Assembly (NCBI RefSeq): GCF_014117215.1
Contig: NZ_JACGXS010000003.1
Span: forward strand, 248,001 to 312,000
Direction of reading: 5' to 3'
From: Stenotrophomonas tumulicola
Lineage (GTDB): Bacteria > Pseudomonadota > Gammaproteobacteria > Xanthomonadales > Xanthomonadaceae
DNA length: 64,000 nt
In this document: in pieces, positions 24,565 through 36,610 of the stretch
Layout: each line of letters opens with the position of its first letter
Position numbering within the stretch: position 1 is the first letter of the stretch
Notes under the pieces: model-generated
What the model saw: only the letters and a program-made list of their open reading frames with translations
The model's database searches: none
Told to the model about the DNA's origin: nothing
Position numbers and translations under genes: made by a program

Positions 24565-24657
24565 GGAGAGGTGTCCGAGTGGTTGAAGGAGCACGCCTGG
24601 AAAGTGTGTAAGCGTCTAAACCGCGCTTCGGGGGTTCGAATCCCCCTCTCTCCGCCA
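24565..24657 (+). tRNA. tRNA-Ser (anticodon GGA), island insertion site
   Basis: A 93-base class II cloverleaf. Acceptor GGAGAGG pairs with CCTCTCC, the anticodon loop CTGGAAA carries GGA (reads TCC), a long variable arm follows, then GGTTCGAATCC and an encoded GCCA end. Its last bases form the left attachment core of the island. Confidence 0.96.
24641..24655 (+). other. Left attachment core (attL) of the genomic island
   Basis: The 15 bases TCCCCCTCTCTCCGC in the tRNA 3' end recur exactly at 36542-36556. The two copies bracket the integrase gene and all foreign-looking cargo, about 11.9 kb apart. Confidence 0.85.
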
Positions 24658-24665
24658 GACTCTGC

Positions 24666-24689
24666 AAACCCCTGAGAAATCAGGGGTTT
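24666..24689 (+). terminator. Terminator after tRNA-Ser supplied by the island
   Basis: A perfect ten-base stem AAACCCCTGA / TCAGGGGTTT with a GAAA tetraloop, followed by TGCTTTT. It replaces the tRNA's own terminator, now displaced to 36555-36610. Confidence 0.85.
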
Positions 24690-24713
24690 TGCTTTTCTGG
24701 GCCTACCAAGGGG

Positions 24714-24734
24714 CAGGACACAAATCGGGACACA
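24714..24734 (+). other. Putative integrase arm-type sites at the left end
   Basis: GGACACA occurs at 24716-24722 and 24728-24734, twelve bases apart. The same pair with the same spacing, within CAGGACACAAATC, occurs near the right end (36471-36489). Confidence 0.55.
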
Positions 24735-24739
24735 TCCCG

Positions 24740-26149
24740 ATGAGAGTTCCCCATCACTTGATCAAGACGCCAGCAGGCTTTTCGTTCCGCCAGCGCGTGC
24801 CCGTCGACCTCCAGCCCCTTCTGGGCTGCCGAATTCTCAAGCGAAGCCTTCGAACACGCGAAATGCGCAGCGCCCAGGCTTGCGCCCTGGTGCTGGCCGC
24901 CCGCTATGCTGAGGTCTTCAGCGCCATCAGGAAGAACGGCATGGGCGAGAAGACGGCAGAGCAATGGCTCCAGGAACTTCGGGGACAACAGCTCCACGAC
25001 TACACCCTGGAACGAGATGCCAATGGCACCCTGCGTATCCAAGCGGAGCCAGGCGAAGACACCGAGGCACTGACTCGCGCCATTGAGAGCATCGGACGGG
25101 TCAACCCTGCGTTCTTCGGCGCGGTAGCCGCCCCGGCAGTCCCCTCCAAGCCCCAGCCCAGCAAAGTCCTGTCGCTGATGGAAGCGCGCGATCTTTGGCT
25201 CAAAGCTATTGCCCCAGACACCATCCCCAAGACCTACAGCATCAAGAAGTCGGCCATTGACGGGTTCGTGCGCACCACCGGCCCTGACTACCCTTTGCCC
25301 AGCATCAACCGGATCGACCTGTCGAACTTCTATCAGTCGCTCGCCGATGCTGGCATCTCAACCCCGACCCGAGTGAACAAACAGTCCTACCTGGGCGGCT
25401 TCTTCGACTGGTTGATTGCCGCTGGCTACTACACAGACAGCAATCCGGCCCGAAGCCATGTCTCATACGGAAATAGCGCCAAGCGTAAGCGGCGCAAGCT
25501 GGGCTTCAAGGCCTTCGACCTGAAGCAGATCAGCCTCCTCTTTGCTCCCTCGGCCTTTGCTAACTTGTCACACGCCGCGCGCTGGGCAGCCTTGTTGGGC
25601 CTGTATACGGGTGCCCGCGCCTCTGAAGTTGGGCAGCTGCTGGTGAGCGATGTGCAAACGGAGGGAGGCGTGGCCTACATCCATATTAATGACGATGGCG
25701 AGCACCAGCGCCTCAAGAGCGAGGCCAGCATCCGGACTGTCCCGATCCACGCTGACCTGATGGCCCTGAGCTTCGGCGACTATGTTGCCAGCCTGCCCAC
25801 CTCAAGCCGTCTCTTCCCCCAAGCGAAGGCCAATGCCGTCAATGGCGCGGGGAACTGGATCTCCAAGGCCTTTACCCGCCACCTTGCTGAGCATGGGAAG
25901 GCCTGGCCCAAGGCCAAGCGCGGTTTCCATTCCCTGCGCAAGACGGTCATTCAGCAGATGCAGGGCTTCGGTGTCGCCTCAGAAATGCGCGCCCAGATCG
26001 TGGGCCACGAGCTTGATGATGAGCACCATCCCGTCTACAGCCGCGAATTCACCCCGGCAGAAAAGCTCAATGGGCTGGTCACTCCTGAATTCAAAACAGC
26101 GGGCCTGTCATCCCTGAGCTTCGATCTTGAGCTCGCTGCACTGAAATAG
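24740..26149 (+). CDS. Tyrosine-recombinase integrase
   Basis: Catalyses island integration into and excision from the tRNA-Ser gene. The 469-residue protein has an N-terminal DUF6538-like segment (VPHHLIKTPAGFSFRQRVP), a SAM-like core-binding region and a C-terminal catalytic domain. The catalytic residues are seen as Arg in YTGARASEVGQL, HSLRK, GHEL and the Tyr nucleophile in VYSREF. I take the ATG at 24740 as the start, since the upstream extension comes from the terminator hairpin. It lies directly beside attL, as expected. Confidence 0.95.
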   Translation: MRVPHHLIKTPAGFSFRQRVPVDLQPLLGCRILKRSLRTREMRSAQACALVLAARYAEVFSAIRKNGMGEKTAEQWLQELRGQQLHDYTLERDANGTLRIQAEPGEDTEALTRAIESIGRVNPAFFGAVAAPAVPSKPQPSKVLSLMEARDLWLKAIAPDTIPKTYSIKKSAIDGFVRTTGPDYPLPSINRIDLSNFYQSLADAGISTPTRVNKQSYLGGFFDWLIAAGYYTDSNPARSHVSYGNSAKRKRRKLGFKAFDLKQISLLFAPSAFANLSHAARWAALLGLYTGARASEVGQLLVSDVQTEGGVAYIHINDDGEHQRLKSEASIRTVPIHADLMALSFGDYVASLPTSSRLFPQAKANAVNGAGNWISKAFTRHLAEHGKAWPKAKRGFHSLRKTVIQQMQGFGVASEMRAQIVGHELDDEHHPVYSREFTPAEKLNGLVTPEFKTAGLSSLSFDLELAALK

Positions 26150-27052: not shown

Positions 27053-27457
27053 CTACGATTTAGGCTTTGGCAAGCGCTTTTCTAGGGGGTCAAGGGGCAC
27101 AGCCTCTTGCGCACGCATTGCCCGCAGGGCAATGCCTAAGTGCGCTCTTGCTATCGCCTTTCTGTCTGCTTTGGCCCCCGTCCAGACGCGTCTTGCCAAG
27201 TCTGGCCACGCCGAACGGCACGCGACGACCCACCCAAAAAATGTGACCACCATCAAACTATTGAATAGATGAGTTGCCTGAGGCAGGATCTCATGACTGA
27301 AGGGCGTATCAGCCAGGGAATTTTCAGGGGGGAGGTAAACATTCGCAGGAGGCTTCAAGAAGCCCGGCAGATATCTGTCAGGATGATAATTGTCGCGCAG
27401 GGTGAAAAACGGCCAATAAATATGCCGACATCTACGCGCGCGAGAGAGAATGAACAT
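27053..27457 (-). CDS. Hypothetical single-pass membrane protein
   Basis: A 134-residue ORF with one hydrophobic segment in the middle (NSLMVVTFFGWVVACRSAW) and a basic Arg/Lys-rich C-terminus. The ATG at 27457 lacks a strong ribosome site. It diverges from the helicase across about 90 bases. Coding status is uncertain. Confidence 0.4.
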   Translation of the reverse strand: MFILSRARRCRHIYWPFFTLRDNYHPDRYLPGFLKPPANVYLPPENSLADTPFSHEILPQATHLFNSLMVVTFFGWVVACRSAWPDLARRVWTGAKADRKAIARAHLGIALRAMRAQEAVPLDPLEKRLPKPKS

Positions 27458-27546
27458 CTCACGTCAGCCGCTGCTGACCAATGCGACGCAGGGAGAATGC
27501 GCCGCCCAACTTCGCATGAGCAGAATACGTATCTAGGAGAAAAAGC

Positions 27547-29343
27547 GTGTCTAGCCCGTTCCAAGATGTCGCACCCCGAATTACTGGAAATCCGAAGGTC
27601 AGAGAGCCGCAACAAGGAGCCTATGAGGCGCTAGCACAGCATGTAGCTGACGGCGTGGACATAAGAGAAGTTAGCGTAGTACTGCCCGTGGGATGCGGGA
27701 AGTCAGGAACTATAACGCTGACTCCATTTGCATATAAATCGAAACGAGCATTGATCGTCGCTCCTGGCGTTGCGATTGCGACGCAGCTGGCAGCTGATTT
27801 CGACTTTAGTAGCGAGAAGCTATTCTATGCCCGCTGCGATGTGATGGATGGTCCTAATTATCCAGAACCGGTGGAAATAAGAGGCACCGATGCAAATCGA
27901 AGTGACCTTGATGCCGCGCACGTTGCGATTACAAACATCCAGCAGATTTCCGGCGATGGCAACAAGTGGTTGCGAACCCTTCCTGCCGACTACTTTGACC
28001 TAATTATTTTCGACGAAGGCCATCATAGCGTTGCAGCAACCTATGAGGCCCTCAAAGCGAAATTCCCTGCAGCCTCGGTCGTGAACTTCAGCGCCACGCC
28101 TCTTAGAGCGGACGGCCAGATGATGAGCGGCCCCGTCGTTTACTCATACCCAATCTTCAAGGCGATCAGGGCAGGCTATGTTAAACAGCTCAAAGCAATC
28201 CAACTCAACCCGAAGACCTTACGCTATGTCAGGCGACCAGGCGATTCGGAGGTGGAAGTCTCCCTCGATGAGGTCCGTCGCCTAGGTGAGGAGGACGCGG
28301 ATTTCCGCAGAAGCATCGTAACGTCCGAAGAAACACTGAATACCATTGTTGACGCGTCCCTCCGGGAGCTCGACCGGCTCCGTAACTTGACGGGGGAACC
28401 ACGCCTAAAGGTAATCGCCTCGGCGTTGAATTATGAGCACTGCATTCAGATTGTGGAGGCTTATCGCGCACGGGGACGGAAGGCCGACTTTGTGCATTCC
28501 CGTGAGAGTAAGAAGAATGACCAAGTTATGCAAAAGCTGGCGAATCATCAACTGGATGTAATCGTACAGGTTAGAAAACTTGGCGAGGGTTTTGATCATC
28601 CATTCCTGTCGGTGGCAGCGGTCCTTAGCGTGTTCTCCAACCTGTCTCCGTTCGTCCAATTCGTTGGGCGAATCATGCGCGTAATCAAGCAAGATGCGCC
28701 CGGGGACGTTGTAAACCAGGGGAGTGTGATTTTTCATGCTGGCGGCAACATTGCTGCCAGGTGGGGAGACTTCCAGCAATTCAGCGAAGATGACCAGTCC
28801 TTCTTCGACCAGCTTCTTCCTCTAGAGGGCTTGGATCCAGCAGATCCCACGGAGTTCCGTGAGTATGCACCTCGCGACACCGTCAATGGCAAGCCCGAGG
28901 TCAAAGAGCAGTCCGAGGTGGAACTGCAGGAAATCCACCTCCTAAAGCAGGAAGAGGAAGACGCCATTCGCCTGTTGAAGGAGAGCGGAATTATCCCTGC
29001 AGACTTTGATCCTACCACCCAAGCGCTCAAGCCCATCGCTGTTCCTAAGGCAGCAAAACGACAGGCCGCCAGAGACGCTCTTAACGAGCTTATTCAACTC
29101 CACGCAGGCCGAATTCTCAATGAGCGCGGAATTAAGCATGTCGGGCGAGAGTTGGATCACAGACGGCTTGGTCGCGACAATTACGTCGTGGTAGTCACCT
29201 CTCTCAACGAGGCAGCGAACACCTTGGTCGGCCGGAAGCCCGGGGAAAGAAGTGAGATGTCACAGGCAGAATTGGACACTATTCGAAGGCAATTTGATGC
29301 CCTAACAGCAAGCGTTTGCAGGAAGCTGTTCGATGGCGACTAA
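27547..29343 (+). CDS. DEAD/DEAH-type superfamily 2 helicase
   Basis: A 598-residue ATP-dependent nucleic-acid translocase or helicase. Motif I is LPVGCGKSGT (about residues 46-55), motif II DEGH (near 156), motif III SATP (near 182) and motif VI QFVGRIMR (near 372). The C-terminal 170 residues hold a Glu-rich helical stretch and an unidentified domain. The GTG at 27547 is chosen because AGGAG lies eight bases upstream. No nuclease or methylase motif is seen within it, so it is not a complete restriction subunit by itself. It overlaps the next small gene by eleven bases, implying cotranslation. Confidence 0.9.
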   Translation: MSSPFQDVAPRITGNPKVREPQQGAYEALAQHVADGVDIREVSVVLPVGCGKSGTITLTPFAYKSKRALIVAPGVAIATQLAADFDFSSEKLFYARCDVMDGPNYPEPVEIRGTDANRSDLDAAHVAITNIQQISGDGNKWLRTLPADYFDLIIFDEGHHSVAATYEALKAKFPAASVVNFSATPLRADGQMMSGPVVYSYPIFKAIRAGYVKQLKAIQLNPKTLRYVRRPGDSEVEVSLDEVRRLGEEDADFRRSIVTSEETLNTIVDASLRELDRLRNLTGEPRLKVIASALNYEHCIQIVEAYRARGRKADFVHSRESKKNDQVMQKLANHQLDVIVQVRKLGEGFDHPFLSVAAVLSVFSNLSPFVQFVGRIMRVIKQDAPGDVVNQGSVIFHAGGNIAARWGDFQQFSEDDQSFFDQLLPLEGLDPADPTEFREYAPRDTVNGKPEVKEQSEVELQEIHLLKQEEEDAIRLLKESGIIPADFDPTTQALKPIAVPKAAKRQAARDALNELIQLHAGRILNERGIKHVGRELDHRRLGRDNYVVVVTSLNEAANTLVGRKPGERSEMSQAELDTIRRQFDALTASVCRKLFDGD

Positions 29344-29563
29344 ATCCTTGATAGTTTCGACAATGGTAGACAGGGCGAAGAAGGCCCACAACTGCCAGGC
29401 TAACAGTAAACATAGGATCGAACGCGGAGACATTCGACTAGGCGTGCGAAAAGACCGGGGCTGGGATCGATACTGTGTTGCTTGTGCGCAGAGCATGATT
29501 GAGCGCGGTCTATTGCGACTGGGAGAACTCAGCAAGTTGGAGCCGCTAGAGAACGGAGTCTAA
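29333..29563 (+). CDS. Small zinc-knuckle protein resembling half of a PARP-type finger
   Basis: A 76-residue protein whose ATG lies inside the end of the helicase gene. It contains AKKAHNCQANSKHRIERGDIRL and then RYCVACAQSMIERG (two separate blocks). Cys, His and CxxC are spaced as in PARP-like zinc fingers, with the typical I-x-x-G-D-x-R-L stretch. Such fingers bind DNA ends or nicks, so it may guide or sense DNA for the helicase; this is an inference. No catalytic domain is present. Confidence 0.7.
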   Translation: MATKSLIVSTMVDRAKKAHNCQANSKHRIERGDIRLGVRKDRGWDRYCVACAQSMIERGLLRLGELSKLEPLENGV

Positions 29564-29576
29564 AGCGCAGCGTGCG

Positions 29577-29603
29577 CCCATCCTTCCGCGCAGGGAGGAT
29601 GGG
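29577..29603. terminator. Hairpin between convergent island genes
   Basis: CCCATCCT and AGGATGGG with an eleven-base loop, between the zinc-knuckle gene and the minus-strand membrane gene. Confidence 0.5.
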
Positions 29604-29648
29604 GCACTCTGCCTTTCTGCCTAGCTGCATTCGCAGGCACTGAGGTGC

Positions 29649-30185
29649 TTAGGTAGTGCGCGCCTCAATAAGCCAAGCTTTCATCCTAGCGAACCACTCA
29701 TCCCTCTCAGTCTCATTGACAGCTGTGCTCTTGAGCCAACGGTCAGAGTGGCGCACGAAGGGAACCAGCCAGAACGGGTTAACAACGTCCCGCACCTGGA
29801 CTTCCAAGCGGTGCGTGACGATGCCTTTGTAGTTGTATTCCCCAGTGCGGATAGCGAGCACTTCAGCCCGCCGCAGGTAGCGCTCGCCCTTCACGGGGTC
29901 CCGAATCCAGATGGTGTCCCTGCCCAGGTCCAAGGCTATGTGGTCATGGGAAATCGTGGGCTCAAACTCTTCAGGCCTATGCTTCTTGAATTTGGGCGTT
30001 CGGCGACGGAACAACCACGGCAAGCCCCACAGCAACGCAAGGGGCCAAAAGACAACCTGGCCGAAGAGCATGAGCCCGAATACTGCCCCTTCAGCGGTAG
30101 TGCCCTTCTCAAACACCACGCTGCAAAGCCACCACAGTGCCGCGCCCGTGATGAGCCAACGCACTACGTTGAACAAGGTCCACAT
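29649..30185 (-). CDS. Two-pass inner-membrane protein of unknown function
   Basis: A 178-residue protein with two hydrophobic segments (about residues 8-26 and 34-56), then a soluble domain of about 110 residues rich in Arg, Trp and Asp. I do not recognise the domain; its pattern is loosely that of bacterial PH-like or DUF membrane domains. It is the third gene of a minus-strand unit with the lipoprotein and the secreted protein. Confidence 0.65.
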   Translation of the reverse strand: MWTLFNVVRWLITGAALWWLCSVVFEKGTTAEGAVFGLMLFGQVVFWPLALLWGLPWLFRRRTPKFKKHRPEEFEPTISHDHIALDLGRDTIWIRDPVKGERYLRRAEVLAIRTGEYNYKGIVTHRLEVQVRDVVNPFWLVPFVRHSDRWLKSTAVNETERDEWFARMKAWLIEARTT

Positions 30186-30220
30186 ACGAGCTTCCTAGCT
30201 TTAGTTGGCGAAGCTTGGGG

Positions 30221-30520
30221 TTAGCGACGATCTACGACAATCCAAGTGCCGTCAACTTTGTCGATGACGAAAGTGCCGACAAGCTGCTGTTGCTCAGTGC
30301 GAGTGCCCAGCTGATACCGCGCAGTCCCAGTGACACTGCAGGCATAGCCAGGACTGTCCCCTCGCGAGCACTCGCCTACCTTGAGACGCTCAAAGGTCAT
30401 CGTCGTTCCCGTCGCTTCCTTGAAATACGCGGTCAGCGCTTTCTCAACATCGCCACTACCAGGGCCACCCGAGCAGGCGGCCAGCAGCACTGCGGCGGAA
30501 ACCATCCAAAGCTTCTTCAT
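30221..30520 (-). CDS. Small lipoprotein
   Basis: A 99-residue protein with signal peptide MKKLWMVSAAVLLAAC, a lipobox LLAAC with Cys16, and a mature Gly/Ser-rich linker plus a small globular domain with two Cys (ECSRG and YACSV). It lies ten bases after the secreted protein gene. Function unknown. Confidence 0.7.
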   Translation of the reverse strand: MKKLWMVSAAVLLAACSGGPGSGDVEKALTAYFKEATGTTMTFERLKVGECSRGDSPGYACSVTGTARYQLGTRTEQQQLVGTFVIDKVDGTWIVVDRR

Positions 30521-30530
30521 GTGTGTTCCT

Positions 30531-31010
30531 TCAGTCGATGAGCAAGCAGTGCTTGCCCGGGTTGAGGCTGGCGCCAGGTAGGACTTCGCTATCGATCACT
30601 GACCCAGCTTTGTTGATGACGATGAAGATCTGGCTAGGCCGGGCGGACGAGTCTTCATCGCGCTCTCCCAAATAGGCCAAGGCAACGGCACCCCCGAAGT
30701 CGTAGACCTTGCCGAAGCCGACCACGCTATGCGCTTCGGTAGGCAGCAGCACCAGCTCGCCGTCGAGCTTGAGCATCCGTTTGTAGTCCGGCCCATCTGC
30801 AGGGTCGATGCGGCCAATGCTGGTTCGGATGGGGCCGGTGGGAGTAGCGGAGCCGTGTCCGGTGGCCCAGATGAAAGCGGAGACCTTGGGCTTCCCTCCC
30901 CCACCCGCCTTGAACTGGCCGCTCTGCAGTTGGCACGACAAGCTGGGCGCAGCCCCAGCAGAGGCAGCGAACGCCAAGAGACCCACCAATGCCCAGCACC
31001 TCATATCCAT
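30531..31010 (-). CDS. Secreted hypothetical protein
   Basis: A 159-residue protein with a signal peptide (MRCWALVGLLAFAASAGAAP). The mature part has one Cys near each end (SLSCQLQ and GKHCLLID), probably a disulfide. The ATG at 31010 or 31004 may be the start. It is the first gene of a three-gene envelope unit that diverges from the XRE regulator, with a palindrome between them. Confidence 0.65.
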   Translation of the reverse strand: MDMRCWALVGLLAFAASAGAAPSLSCQLQSGQFKAGGGGKPKVSAFIWATGHGSATPTGPIRTSIGRIDPADGPDYKRMLKLDGELVLLPTEAHSVVGFGKVYDFGGAVALAYLGERDEDSSARPSQIFIVINKAGSVIDSEVLPGASLNPGKHCLLID

Positions 31011-31049
31011 ACGACTGCCTCCCGATCCAATTTTGCGTTGAACGAAAAT

Positions 31050-31071
31050 GACCGGATAAGCTTATGCGGTC
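31050..31071. promoter_or_regulatory. Palindromic operator between the XRE gene and the envelope unit
   Basis: A 22-base near-perfect palindrome: arms GACCG and CGGTC flank ATAAGCTTAT, with one mismatched base on each side. It lies 36 bases upstream of the XRE start and 40 bases from the start of the divergent gene. It is a likely binding site for the XRE protein; this is inferred from position and symmetry. Confidence 0.65.
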
Positions 31072-31106
31072 AAACTTCGGAGAGTCAACGTGTTTGTTTC
31101 TACCGG

Positions 31107-31439
31107 ATGCCCGCCGCTCAACCTACGCCCACAGTCCTTGGCCAACGCCTACGCGCCGCACGCGTCGCCAAAGGCTGGACGCAAGCTCAGCTAGGCGAAA
31201 TGCTCATGGGAGTGGATGACTCAAATACGACGGCGCCTCGCATCAGCCGATATGAGCGGGGGATGCACAAGCCGGACTTGGAGACCATTGAGAAGTTGGC
31301 GGAACTGCTGAATCTTCCAGCGGCCTACTTCCTTGCTGCTTCGGACACAATGGCTGAAGCCATCCTAGTGCTTTCCCAGCTTGATGCCAGGAAGCAGAAG
31401 GAAGCACTGGCACTGCTAAAGCAACTTGCGGGACTTTAG
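31107..31439 (+). CDS. XRE-family transcriptional regulator
   Basis: A 110-residue Cro/CI-type helix-turn-helix protein. LGQRLRAARVAKGWTQAQLGEML is followed by APRISRYERGMHKPDLETIEKLAELLNLP, the XRE recognition and dimerisation helices. The ATG at 31107 has no clear ribosome site. It is likely to repress itself and the divergent envelope genes through the palindrome. Confidence 0.88.
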   Translation: MPAAQPTPTVLGQRLRAARVAKGWTQAQLGEMLMGVDDSNTTAPRISRYERGMHKPDLETIEKLAELLNLPAAYFLAASDTMAEAILVLSQLDARKQKEALALLKQLAGL

Positions 31440-33543: not shown

Positions 33544-34167
33544 ATGTATGCCGACGACATAAAAGTAATGATTGTATCGGCGCTATTGCCTACGCTCGAC
33601 TTCGATGAAGTCTTGGGATCTGAGGTGCGATTCGGCGATGGGAAATACAGGGCAGATTTGGTTGTTTCCTCGCCTACTCGGCTGAGCGCAATCGAAATTA
33701 AAGGACCACGTGACAACTTCGACAAGCTTGATGAACAAGCGCGGGGTTACGGTTCCATGTTTCTCGACTTTTCTGTGGCCACCACCGCCAATTGGCTGCC
33801 ACTGTTGCGGTCGCGCTTACCCCGCTCAACAGGTTTGATCACCCTTGACGAAGATGGCATCCAGTATGTGCGCAAGCCCCAGCAGCGAAACACGCTTTCA
33901 ACTGACGCCTCACTCAAATGGCTGCGCTCTAATGACCTCAAACGGTTGATGCTTCTACACGATCTTCCCCAAACGGGACTACATGAAGCGTTAGCTGAAA
34001 AGGCCCTAAAGCTATCCAGAAATTCGCTTTCCGAGTTCACATTGGCAGCGATACACGAGCGACTGGCGACCAGGTTCGAATCGTTTAGATCAGAACTAGG
34101 TAGCACAGTCACTCTGGACGACGTGCGGATGCTGACACTAAGTGAGAGAATTATCGGGAAACTCTAA
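33544..34167 (+). CDS. sce7726-family protein, predicted PD-(D/E)xK nuclease
   Basis: A 207-residue protein with a restriction-endonuclease-like core: Glu27, Asp38 in YRADLV and Glu51-x-Lys53 in AIEIKG, followed by DKLDEQARGYGSMF. This EIK...D..QxxxY pattern is that of the sce7726 family as I remember it. No function is established for that family to my knowledge; nuclease activity is inferred from the motif. A C-terminal helical region (residues 115-207) is separate. The last 17 bases overlap the end of the convergent Beta-family gene. Confidence 0.75.
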   Translation: MYADDIKVMIVSALLPTLDFDEVLGSEVRFGDGKYRADLVVSSPTRLSAIEIKGPRDNFDKLDEQARGYGSMFLDFSVATTANWLPLLRSRLPRSTGLITLDEDGIQYVRKPQQRNTLSTDASLKWLRSNDLKRLMLLHDLPQTGLHEALAEKALKLSRNSLSEFTLAAIHERLATRFESFRSELGSTVTLDDVRMLTLSERIIGKL

Positions 34168-35176
34168 CCACTTGCCTGGAGATATGGAAATTGACCCGGT
34201 TAGAGATCCAGAATGACGGGCTTCGTCCGATAGCTTCACCATCGGCAGTTTTGCGGATGTTGTCGACCGCCCAACAGCCGAGAGGCACAAATCGCGGATC
34301 CTTGATTGCGCGCTGCGCGCACTTCACGTAGCCGCCCTCGGTTCTACGATAGCGGTGATAGAAGAAAGACCTATCCAGCATGACATCGATTCTGGGAACC
34401 CAGTTCGTGACAGTACCCGAAAAATCCATTGGATGGATTCCAGCGTAGTCGCTGTAGTCCAATCCTGAAAATCTTTTGGAGAGATCACTCCAAAGTTCAA
34501 CTTCAGTGAGATTGAATTCCCCCTCTTCATCCCCGCCTCCGGCAGAGACGACGCTGATAGGGAAAGAGCTGGCAGCAATTGATTTAGCAAAAAAATCGAT
34601 GCCGTCAATTGTGCCAAGCATCTCAGCAAGGCGGGCGTTAGCCCCCGAAAGCCCCTTTAGGGAGACGTAAGCCGCATCCAAAATTAGGACAACATCCTCG
34701 GTTCGCCCAAACATATTCGGGAGATTTCCAACCAGCTCATCAAAATCAGAATAGTTAGTCGGGACCCGGACGGCGAATTTTGTGAACTTTTCCCTCAATG
34801 AAGCTATTTGACGCCGAAAAGAAACAGCATCAAATGGCTCCAAAAGATGGACTACAGGGACGCAGTGTGCGGGAAGATTCTCTACCGCAAAGTCAGTCCA
34901 GTATGAGAACCCATTCTGGTCATCAAGAAAATTATCAAATTCTGTATTTTGCTGACTTTCAAGGGAGGTAAGATCTACGATAAAAGGCTGCTCGCCCAAT
35001 ATTTCGAGGACAGCTTCAACACTTTTCGCAACATTGCCCGCTGGATTCTTTGACGTTCTACGTGATTTCGTCAATTCAATGATAGGCAGCAACTTAAGCC
35101 TCGCATCCTGCGACAGTTCCTTTAGGCCGCGCAATTCGGCCGCACGGGATCGGACAATAGGCAAATATCTTGTCAT
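34151..35176 (-). CDS. Beta-family (sce7725-like) protein
   Basis: A 341-residue protein opening YLPIVRSRAAELRGLKEL and then LLPIIELTK, the signature of the Beta-protein (PF14350) and sce7725 families. Later segments RVPTNYSDF and VVLILDAAYVSL fit a TIM-barrel-like repeat. The biochemical role is unknown. In other genomes sce7725-like and sce7726-like genes are neighbours; here they are also neighbours but convergent. It overlaps the ImmA/IrrE gene by ATGA and the nuclease gene tail to tail. Confidence 0.78.
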   Translation of the reverse strand: MTRYLPIVRSRAAELRGLKELSQDARLKLLPIIELTKSRRTSKNPAGNVAKSVEAVLEILGEQPFIVDLTSLESQQNTEFDNFLDDQNGFSYWTDFAVENLPAHCVPVVHLLEPFDAVSFRRQIASLREKFTKFAVRVPTNYSDFDELVGNLPNMFGRTEDVVLILDAAYVSLKGLSGANARLAEMLGTIDGIDFFAKSIAASSFPISVVSAGGGDEEGEFNLTEVELWSDLSKRFSGLDYSDYAGIHPMDFSGTVTNWVPRIDVMLDRSFFYHRYRRTEGGYVKCAQRAIKDPRFVPLGCWAVDNIRKTADGEAIGRSPSFWISNRVNFHISRQVVRVSR

Positions 35177-35703
35177 TGGTTAACCCTGTAGCCCAAGTTC
35201 TGAACCCTATATTTCATTGCCAGAGCAGACACACCAAACTCTGCGGCGAGCCCTGAGAGGGTCGTATTTCCCGAAGAAATCATTTGCCTGACATCAGCCT
35301 CAGGCATCAGAAGCTCAGCAGCGAAACGATCCGCTTCGCGCTCCATAGGATTTGGATCATCGTTCCTGCGGGCAAACGTTTGATCATGGAAGCTCTTTTT
35401 CTGCCCAGAATGGAGCACGAAATGCGCAATCTCGTGAGCAATTGTAAATCTCTTTCGATTGCGGTGATGGAGCGAATTCACGCCAACAACCCAAGAGCCA
35501 GAGCGCACTTCGAGATAGCCGGAGAGATCATCTGCCATTGGCTCCTCAACGACCTCCAAGCCCAGGAATTCCGCTATTGCCACGACGTTTACGGGCACGC
35601 GCAAAAGACCCGCATCGGATAGGCGTTGGCGCAGGTCAACCTCGCGTTGAGCACTCATTGCAGAGGTTCTCACAGAGGAAACTTTTTTTCTTACAACCGC
35701 CAT
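35173..35703 (-). CDS. ImmA/IrrE-family metallopeptidase
   Basis: A 176-residue zinc peptidase. The HEIAH motif is at residues 90-94 and the third ligand lies in EREADRFAAELLMP. Members cleave repressors to relieve silencing of mobile elements or stress genes. A C-terminal LAAEFGVSALAMKYRVQNLG helix is the usual DNA-binding-like tail. The start is ATG at 35703, one base into the stop of the preceding membrane gene; a GTG one codon earlier is possible. Its natural target could be a regulator in the island, but the XRE gene is in a separate unit. Confidence 0.9.
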   Translation of the reverse strand: MAVVRKKVSSVRTSAMSAQREVDLRQRLSDAGLLRVPVNVVAIAEFLGLEVVEEPMADDLSGYLEVRSGSWVVGVNSLHHRNRKRFTIAHEIAHFVLHSGQKKSFHDQTFARRNDDPNPMEREADRFAAELLMPEADVRQMISSGNTTLSGLAAEFGVSALAMKYRVQNLGYRVNQ

Positions 35704-36350
35704 CACCTATCCTCAGTCAAGTCTGAAACCACATCCCCATCAAGATCTTCGTCATCACTACTCAGGAGTCTACTCTTACGTCGCTTCTTCAAGCTTTCTT
35801 TGATGCTATCAAGATCTTTTTCTAATCTTTCCAACTGATACGCCAAGCCGGTTTCCTCGATTGCATATTTTACGCTATCGCCAAACTGGCGAGTCTCAAG
35901 GTAATGAGCCATCGCCTCTTTCGCGGCACCGTGAGCAATATCTTCAGCCGCTGATTTCGATAAAAACCTCAAAGTTAATACTGCCAATATTCCTATGAGG
36001 CCCAGCAAGACCCCCATCATCGTAATAATCGTCTGATAGAAGCTGCTAAGTGCAGAAACAACTTCGCCGTCACTCCATCGGTCCGGCTTCCTTTCCGGAA
36101 TAGAAGCAGCCGGGGAACTCTCAGGCGCCTTGTCGATGACTCGCACCGGATTTTTTATCTTTTCCGCGACTGGGATCTGCGATTCGAATTGCTTTTGGAG
36201 ATCGAATGCATGAACCCTCCAGACCTGGGCGAAGAAGAGGAAGAAACATATGACTATCAATGAGATGAGGACCCGGCGCTTGAGTCGAAGATTGGGGTCC
36301 GTCTTCCATGAGCTACTCATATCAAATTCCGGTCTCGTATGATGAGACAT
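35703..36350 (-). CDS. Two-pass membrane protein with coiled coil
   Basis: An unrecognised protein of about 215 residues. There are hydrophobic segments at about residues 27-46 and 108-130 with a periplasmic Pro/Ser-rich loop between. The C-terminal cytoplasmic part is a charged coiled coil (YQLERLEKDLDSIKESLKKRRK) ending in an acidic tail. The start is uncertain: ATG 36350, a TTG at 36359, or ATG 36320, which has GGAA six bases upstream. It is the first gene of the unit with the peptidase and Beta protein; membrane-coil proteins often act as sensors or effectors in such units. Confidence 0.65.
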   Translation of the reverse strand: MSHHTRPEFDMSSSWKTDPNLRLKRRVLISLIVICFFLFFAQVWRVHAFDLQKQFESQIPVAEKIKNPVRVIDKAPESSPAASIPERKPDRWSDGEVVSALSSFYQTIITMMGVLLGLIGILAVLTLRFLSKSAAEDIAHGAAKEAMAHYLETRQFGDSVKYAIEETGLAYQLERLEKDLDSIKESLKKRRKSRLLSSDDEDLDGDVVSDLTEDR

Positions 36351-36541: not shown

Positions 36542-36556
36542 TCCCCCTCTCTCCGC
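36542..36556 (+). other. Right attachment core (attR)
   Basis: An exact 15-base copy of the tRNA-Ser 3' end (TCCCCCTCTCTCCGC), here without the rest of the tRNA. The following bases continue into the terminator hairpin that originally lay behind the tRNA. Confidence 0.85.
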
Positions 36557-36610
36557 AGGACAAAACAAAACAGGCCACCCGACGGGGTGGCCTGTTTTGT
36601 TTTGTCCTGC
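36555..36610 (+). terminator. Displaced terminator of tRNA-Ser(GGA)
   Basis: A perfect 26-base inverted repeat with a GACG loop; the arms run 36555-36580 and 36585-36610 and read GCAGGACAAAACAAAACAGG onward. The layout matches the hairpin behind tRNA-Ser(CGA) at 42321-42387. This marks it as the original 3' flank of the interrupted tRNA. Confidence 0.8.

Follow-up and report, generated by a model that had tools for sequence, protein, structure and literature searches.

In RecQ-like superfamily 2 (SF2) proteins, of which RadD is one, the motor domains are followed by zinc-binding regions, for which an aid to DNA binding has been proposed; in RadD a single chain includes two zinc fingers (PMC9049331). 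An ATP-dependent helicase and a DUF2290 protein form a two-gene anti-T7 system, described from phage satellites and prophage hotspots (PMC9122126). Our study concerns a pair of overlapping genes, one for an SF2 helicase and the other for a 76-residue zinc-finger protein, located in a 64,000-nucleotide stretch of the Stenotrophomonas tumulicola genome (contig NZ_JACGXS010000003.1, positions 248,001 to 312,000 of the forward strand; this whole stretch is hereafter the window, and its coordinates are counted from its first letter). The two genes constitute a widely conserved unit present on bacterial islands and plasmids.

The nearest solved fold to the window helicase is that of RadD (YejH), with which it has in common the SF2 core and motifs as well as a zinc module tied to the motor; however, the RadD fingers lie in cis after the second motor domain (PMC9049331), whereas the partner in the window is a separate predicted treble clef. 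As a RadD equivalog the helicase was rejected, with an NCBIfam score of 28.9 bits against the 720 required. RqlH and RqlI are comparable in that the partner gene lies close behind the helicase gene or overlaps it and RqlI binds RqlH, but RqlH is a RecQ-family protein with a PRTase domain and a partner of 400 amino acids (PMC4670107); Pfam found no PRTase domain in the window helicase. The helicase and DUF2290 system likewise joins a helicase to a partner gene in mobile settings (PMC9122126), and differs in that Pfam did not find DUF2290 in our pair. Hachiman (HamA/HamB) is also a two-gene unit with an SF2 helicase, and one copy adjoins the pair in one locus (L105), yet HamA is a DUF1837 protein and DUF1837 is absent from the window pair. 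IbfA was discarded as a relative, being an unrelated ATPase/TOPRIM protein (PMC12111858). No description of the pair was found in literature searches for it or for its parts, as judged by titles and the first portions of abstracts, a coverage that leaves preprints and most subscription papers outside. Like the helicase and DUF2290 system, the pair joins a helicase to a small partner, an arrangement already known, of which it is a variant with a function that we infer.

Coupling, conservation and co-inheritance of the two genes

The helicase gene (27547-29343, + strand) begins with GTG and encodes 598 amino acids, and the gene for the predicted treble-clef zinc finger (29333-29563, + strand) begins with ATG in a different frame and encodes 76. 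The two overlap by 11 nt (29333-29343, + strand), in agreement with the initial annotation, which had placed the start of the small gene eleven bases inside the helicase gene, and an AGGA word resembling a Shine-Dalgarno sequence for the finger gene lies within the 3' end of the helicase gene (29320-29323, + strand). Among 32 copies, the overlap is of 8 nt (15 copies), 11 nt (8), 14 nt (3), 1 nt (3) or 20 nt (2), and a gap of 4 nt occurs once; that is, 23 of the 32 overlap by 8 or 11 nt. A Shine-Dalgarno-like 4-mer was present directly upstream of the finger start in 30 of the 32, versus 159 of 960 control windows inside helicases. One copy (L023) entered this test, the alignment and the mirror tree described below six bases late, the overlap count using its corrected start, and the start of another (L010) was two codons late in some alignments. 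The coupling of a helicase to a separate zinc knuckle, originally proposed from this single locus, is supported.

One scan of genome contigs identified 11 helicase relatives at 50-59% identity, in records assigned to Nitrospirae, Chlorobiaceae, Acidobacteriaceae, Alphaproteobacteria, Firmicutes, an actinobacterium and an uncultured bacterium, and in all 11 loci the helicase is followed by a small frame that repeats the Cys/His pattern. In one of them (L013) the helicase and finger frames are both broken in the record and the start was not found; this locus was excluded from later alignments. A finger open reading frame (ORF) is also located at the helicase end in all ten close viral-contig loci, which include two near-duplicate pairs, and beside the helicase in 30 of 30 among the plasmid matches listed (26 close and 4 distant, the latter with a divergent finger), a count made on the best 30 listed helicase records and leaving 170 weaker ones outside. 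In the reverse test, all 30 plasmid records that match the finger of a Salmonella plasmid possess the helicase, intact or broken, and the three finger matches in sampled genomes beyond that of the window itself (G004, G141 and G720) each lie behind a helicase frame. The initial annotation had asked for the small ORF beside homologous helicases and for the same pair in other islands: the former is present in every one of these sets, and the latter was found in an island at the ssrA site, on plasmids and at all 11 genome-contig loci. The only viral-contig match to the finger without a helicase (L112, 27 residues) was dropped; the Cys/His pattern occurs in none of its frames.

The pair is rare in the sampled genomes: the finger was found in two of 101 relatives, and at class and phylum level in two of 369 and two of 398 genomes, respectively, with the window genome included each time. 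The pair of the Salmonella plasmid gave no DNA match across 5,426 E. coli genomes, and the L010 finger used as a query against viral contigs found nothing. In five plasmid records (L016, L100, L101, L102 and L103) the helicase is annotated and the small gene beside it has been overlooked. On two other plasmids both genes have decayed jointly, which favours a two-gene module: in Zymomonas pZZM404 (L107, 6789-8231) the helicase is broken and position 21 of the finger is F, and Erwinia pETR005-b (L108, 1905-3859) has 32 stops in the helicase frame and a broken finger. It is important to note that L018/L024/G004, L020/L021, L025/L104, L032/L105 and the 5.9-kb enterobacterial plasmids are near-duplicates, so that record counts exceed the number of independent events; the weak viral-contig matches L036-L097 fall outside the partner survey, and the L029 contig ends before its helicase does. 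Behind three more distant helicases (L028, 2395-2730; L030, 9931-10263; L031, 9928-10260) we observed ORFs of about 110 amino acids, alike by eye and without the zinc pattern, which are possibly an exchanged partner.

Helicase and finger distances are correlated in a mirror-tree analysis, both over 29 pairs, some of them near-duplicates (r = 0.80; L107 and L108 omitted for their broken helicases), and over the 24 core pairs (r = 0.72), with none of 2000 permutations as high in either case, and this correlation corresponds to co-inheritance of the two genes. Measured against a copy at 95% DNA identity in the helicase gene, the helicase has a dN/dS ratio of 0.039 and the finger one of 0.116, values that indicate purifying selection on both. 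Because homologous frames, reciprocal pairing, the Shine-Dalgarno-like word and the low dN/dS all coincide, the small ORF is a gene, and a chance frame is excluded.

The helicase and the predicted fold of its partner

Pfam recognises ResIII (5.3e-23) and Helicase_C (1.9e-6) in the large protein, a PDB profile search returned XPB, the type I R subunit, SauUSI (7clg) and RadD among its relatives, and the top Foldseek match for its predicted structure (mean predicted local distance difference test, pLDDT, of 76.8) is RadD (8.5e-15). Five SF2 helicase motifs, I, II, III, V and VI, all on the + strand, were delimited in an alignment of 15 sequences that includes the window copy. Motif I or Walker A, PVGCGKSG (27685-27708, residues 47-54), and motif III, SATP (28090-28101, residues 182-185), are invariant in all 15, as are D156, E157, H159 and H160 of motif II, DEGHH (28012-28026, residues 156-160), residues 347-351 of motif V, GEGFDH (28582-28599, residues 346-351), in which G346 is kept in at least 90%, and every position except residue 376 of motif VI, QFVGRIMR (28657-28680, residues 371-378). 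The only cysteines of the window helicase are at positions 50, 97, 299 and 591. The CxxC motif is absent from 28 of 29 helicases, that of the window included, and the single case (L009, residue 297) is not after the motor. Judged by its sequence and model, the protein is an SF2 motor of the RadD/XPB/HsdR-like kind that is devoid of RadD's built-in zinc ribbons. PADLOC reported partial matches of the helicase to PbeA, to type I, III and IV enzymes and to DpdF.

In the small protein, C21, H27, R35, C48 and C51 are invariant in all 24 core fingers, H19 and G32 are present in 22, and the ligand order C-x5-H...C-x2-C is maintained in the 24, which upholds the earlier claim of a conserved cysteine pattern; in the window, the conserved ligand codons 21, 27, 48 and 51 begin at 29393, 29411, 29474 and 29483 (+ strand). 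The net charge of residues 1-60 of the core fingers ranges from +2 to +10, with a mean of +6.5. In the AlphaFold2 model (mean pLDDT 91.2) a short strand precedes a beta hairpin, after which a helix starts at the second CxxC, and by this model the protein is a predicted treble clef. A Pfam scan at E 1 or better recognised no catalytic domain, as the initial annotation had held, and returned only a weak zf-PARP match; against PADLOC models the small protein had no matches. Two distant fingers with two CxxC motifs (L101 and L102) are probably homologous to that of the window (hhalign to the window family, 72%, E 3.5e-5). In the lineage of L100, L105, L032 and G720 the second CxxC is lost, while the gene is retained at the helicase end and overlaps it wherever this was measured. 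In the finger ORFs of L100, L105, L032 and L117, YSxxxA replaces YCxxCA, C21 and H27 are kept, and the ORF still stands at the end of a helicase frame.

The initial annotation had likened this protein to a PARP-type DNA-nick finger. A true finger of this type, that is, a bacterial zf-PARP homologue recognising nicks and double-strand ends, would agree with the structural comparisons, since PARP1 or DNA-ligase-III fingers occupy 22 of the 25 best Foldseek ranks for the finger model and 16 of the 18 VIA-align rows at Z of at least 4.5; it would also agree with the names of two of the first 13 viral structure matches, labelled PARP-type or zf-PARP proteins, and with the weak Pfam match (PF00645, E 0.024). 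However, this match reaches 15.8 bits against a Pfam cut-off of 39.3, only 2 of 20 finger members match zf-PARP at all (best E 0.0079), and unrelated Pfam families match single members equally or better (Churchill, E 0.0014). All Foldseek matches of the finger model have E 0.25 or worse, none being below 0.001, and the VIA-align rows, taken from Foldseek's own list, all have finger Z values below 8: the PARP1 chain with Zn1 (8g0h) aligns at Z 5.8 (6.4 Å over 62 residues) and PARP1 Zn2 (3odc) at Z 5.3 (3.2 Å over 58 residues), but the RING finger ZNRF1 ties with them at Z 5.5 (3.3 Å over 56 residues). A profile-profile comparison (hhalign) with a zf-PARP profile of four sequences gave a probability of 0.5% with 14 misplaced columns, a PDB profile search with the finger family did not find a PARP finger, and a zf-PARP search of the organism's entire genome gave nothing at E 1 or better. 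The zf-PARP domains of PARP1 and DNA ligase III have in common with the window finger an invariant arginine after the first knuckle and, going by its model, a treble-clef arrangement, but their ligands follow the order C-x2-C...H-x2-C in the four solved sequences, and homology is not seen at the profile level. We therefore regard a genuine nick finger as very unlikely. Of the original comparison, the likeness in predicted fold, mostly nearest to PARP1 and ligase III, is retained, and membership of the zf-PARP family is not; the profile search suggested for it did not support such membership, and the PARP label suits at best the predicted fold.

Genomic homes and neighbouring genes

The window pair resides in an 11.9-kb island with a G+C content of 0.54, versus 0.67 and 0.65 in its flanks. 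The integration target is a tRNA-Ser(gga) gene identified by ARAGORN (24565-24657, + strand), whose 3' end is covered by the left 20-nt direct repeat, a putative attL (24641-24660, + strand); the right repeat, a putative attR (36542-36561, + strand), is 90% identical to the left copy. A tyrosine integrase gene (24689-26149, + strand; Pfam Phage_integrase 2.3e-8, DUF6538 8.9e-15) belongs to the island. A block of 4.3 kb (27145-31420, strand not assigned) is common, at about 89% DNA identity by blastn, to an ssrA-site island in L018, L024 and G004, where the tmRNA gene adjoins a different integrase; in blastn, four other loci match the helicase region only. Within this block the pair is accompanied by an XRE regulator and three ORFs, one of them short and membrane-type and another lipoprotein-like (29649-31010, - strand, and 31143-31439, + strand). 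Other homes include a contig with a phage terminase (L019), conjugative and mobilizable plasmids, and MOBP plasmids of 5.9-6.2 kb, on which the helicase and the preceding gene overlap. In L014, from Salmonella, that preceding gene is the replication initiator, which shares 11 nt with the helicase so that the order is rep-helicase-finger, and L017 has the same layout with a preceding gene annotated as hypothetical.

Defence genes were identified in the fetched flank of at least 12 of 29 distinct loci. These loci are our grouping without L098, which has a short flank, and L108, and their flanks are unequal in length; neighbour ORFs were taken with a greedy longest-ORF script, 128 of 242 (mostly of at least 140 amino acids) were pooled for scanning, and only the 25 most-matched families were considered, hence the count is a lower bound. 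Restriction or modification genes occur near the pair in L006, L009, L010, L101, L103 and L106, with a BsuBI/PstI-type enzyme gene that stops 37 nt before the likely helicase ATG in L010 and genes for a methylase and a DpnII-type enzyme directly upstream in L103. The remaining cases are Hachiman (L105), Shedu (L102), AbiEi (L007), a PtuA-like protein (L003), PDC-M02B (L104) and the window itself, which is counted for its PADLOC matches to 'beta', capP and 'cll'. In the window, a beta-protein gene overlaps a gene for an ImmA/IrrE-type peptidase (34151-35706, - strand, and 33544-34167, + strand). PADLOC assigned this unit to 'beta' (4e-50), PD-Lambda-2_C (4e-15) and capP (7e-34), and its neighbour to 'cll' (9e-15); by these matches it looks like a second defence-type unit of the island.

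Possible roles of the pair

Tentatively, and ahead of the other explanations considered, we read the pair as a mobile two-gene module in which a RadD/XPB-type SF2 motor and a separately encoded finger subunit would travel as protective cargo. The large protein would be an ATP-driven DNA helicase or translocase, and the basic finger, whose overlapping gene has a ribosome-binding word of its own, would most likely be supplied in step with it. Since the helicase is without a zinc module and comes with a basic finger encoded by the overlapping gene, the finger would most simply be a subunit that binds the helicase and serves its DNA contact or loading in trans, corresponding to the zinc-binding region held in the same chain by RecQ/RadD-type helicases. 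The pair may shield the element or its host from foreign DNA, for example by acting at ends, nicks or forks beside restriction enzymes; its being rare, cross-phylum, mobile and often beside defence genes favours a protective role.

Several observations weigh against this. The defence neighbourhood is suggestive, but it was counted without matched control loci, and defence genes abound on plasmids and islands in any case; two of the smallest carriers offer nothing beyond a RelE-type toxin-antitoxin pair, and PADLOC (2023 models) contains no described system with both proteins. In 50,697 phage records there was neither a match to the finger nor a helicase covered over 80% of its length, so that viral homes are represented by IMG/VR contigs alone. 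In four distant loci with helicases of 30-33% identity over the best segment (L028, L030, L031 and L033), the finger was not found within 1.5 kb. As to binding, shared descent without contact would give the same mirror-tree correlation, and the lineage that lost the second CxxC and kept the gene suggests that zinc is dispensable there.

The main rival explanation, which we consider rather unlikely, is that the pair maintains its element as a portable RadD-like aid to replication, fork restart or damage survival, and is not a defence system. It would account for the gene order of L014 and L017 and for the ImpB/MucB/SamB-type polymerase gene upstream in L019, and RadD, whose solved fold is the nearest, is a repair protein (PMC9049331; PMC8887467). 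However, a non-replication gene adjoins the helicase in the other annotated plasmid regions inspected, the pair is kept in chromosomal islands, and a search with five strict patterns, covering at most 300 nt before each of 31 loci, found no LexA boxes. Alternatively, the finger might restrain a helicase that is harmful when free, as in a toxin-antitoxin or regulator pair and as RqlI does with RqlH, an interacting helicase and partner whose downstream partner gene is often close or overlapping (PMC4670107). The obligate pairing and the joint decay fit such an arrangement, but RqlI has 400 amino acids, the toxicity of RqlH resides in its PRTase domain (PMC4670107), a domain that Pfam did not find here, and with two or three decaying loci only there are too few to order the breakage of the genes; we judge this explanation improbable.

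A more specific form of the protective-cargo reading, which we hold to be doubtful, is a new anti-invader system, carried by mobile elements through several phyla, in which a tiny, separately encoded PARP-finger-like sensor would lead the SF2 translocase to foreign DNA, at its ends, nicks or forks. It would work after or together with neighbouring restriction enzymes, degradation being left to host nucleases, and its partner would be exchangeable: the Cys/His treble clef, the two-CxxC form, the form without the second CxxC and perhaps the unrelated protein of about 110 amino acids.

The pair is cross-phylum, mobile and strongly conserved, and several plasmid records describe it only as a 'DEAD/DEAH box helicase', which makes it a clean screening target for studies of defence and of plasmid biology. 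If the finger is a DNA-contact subunit, the pair would represent a zinc module of the RecQ/RadD type acting in trans, and it may offer a minimal system for understanding what directs a translocase to particular DNA structures.

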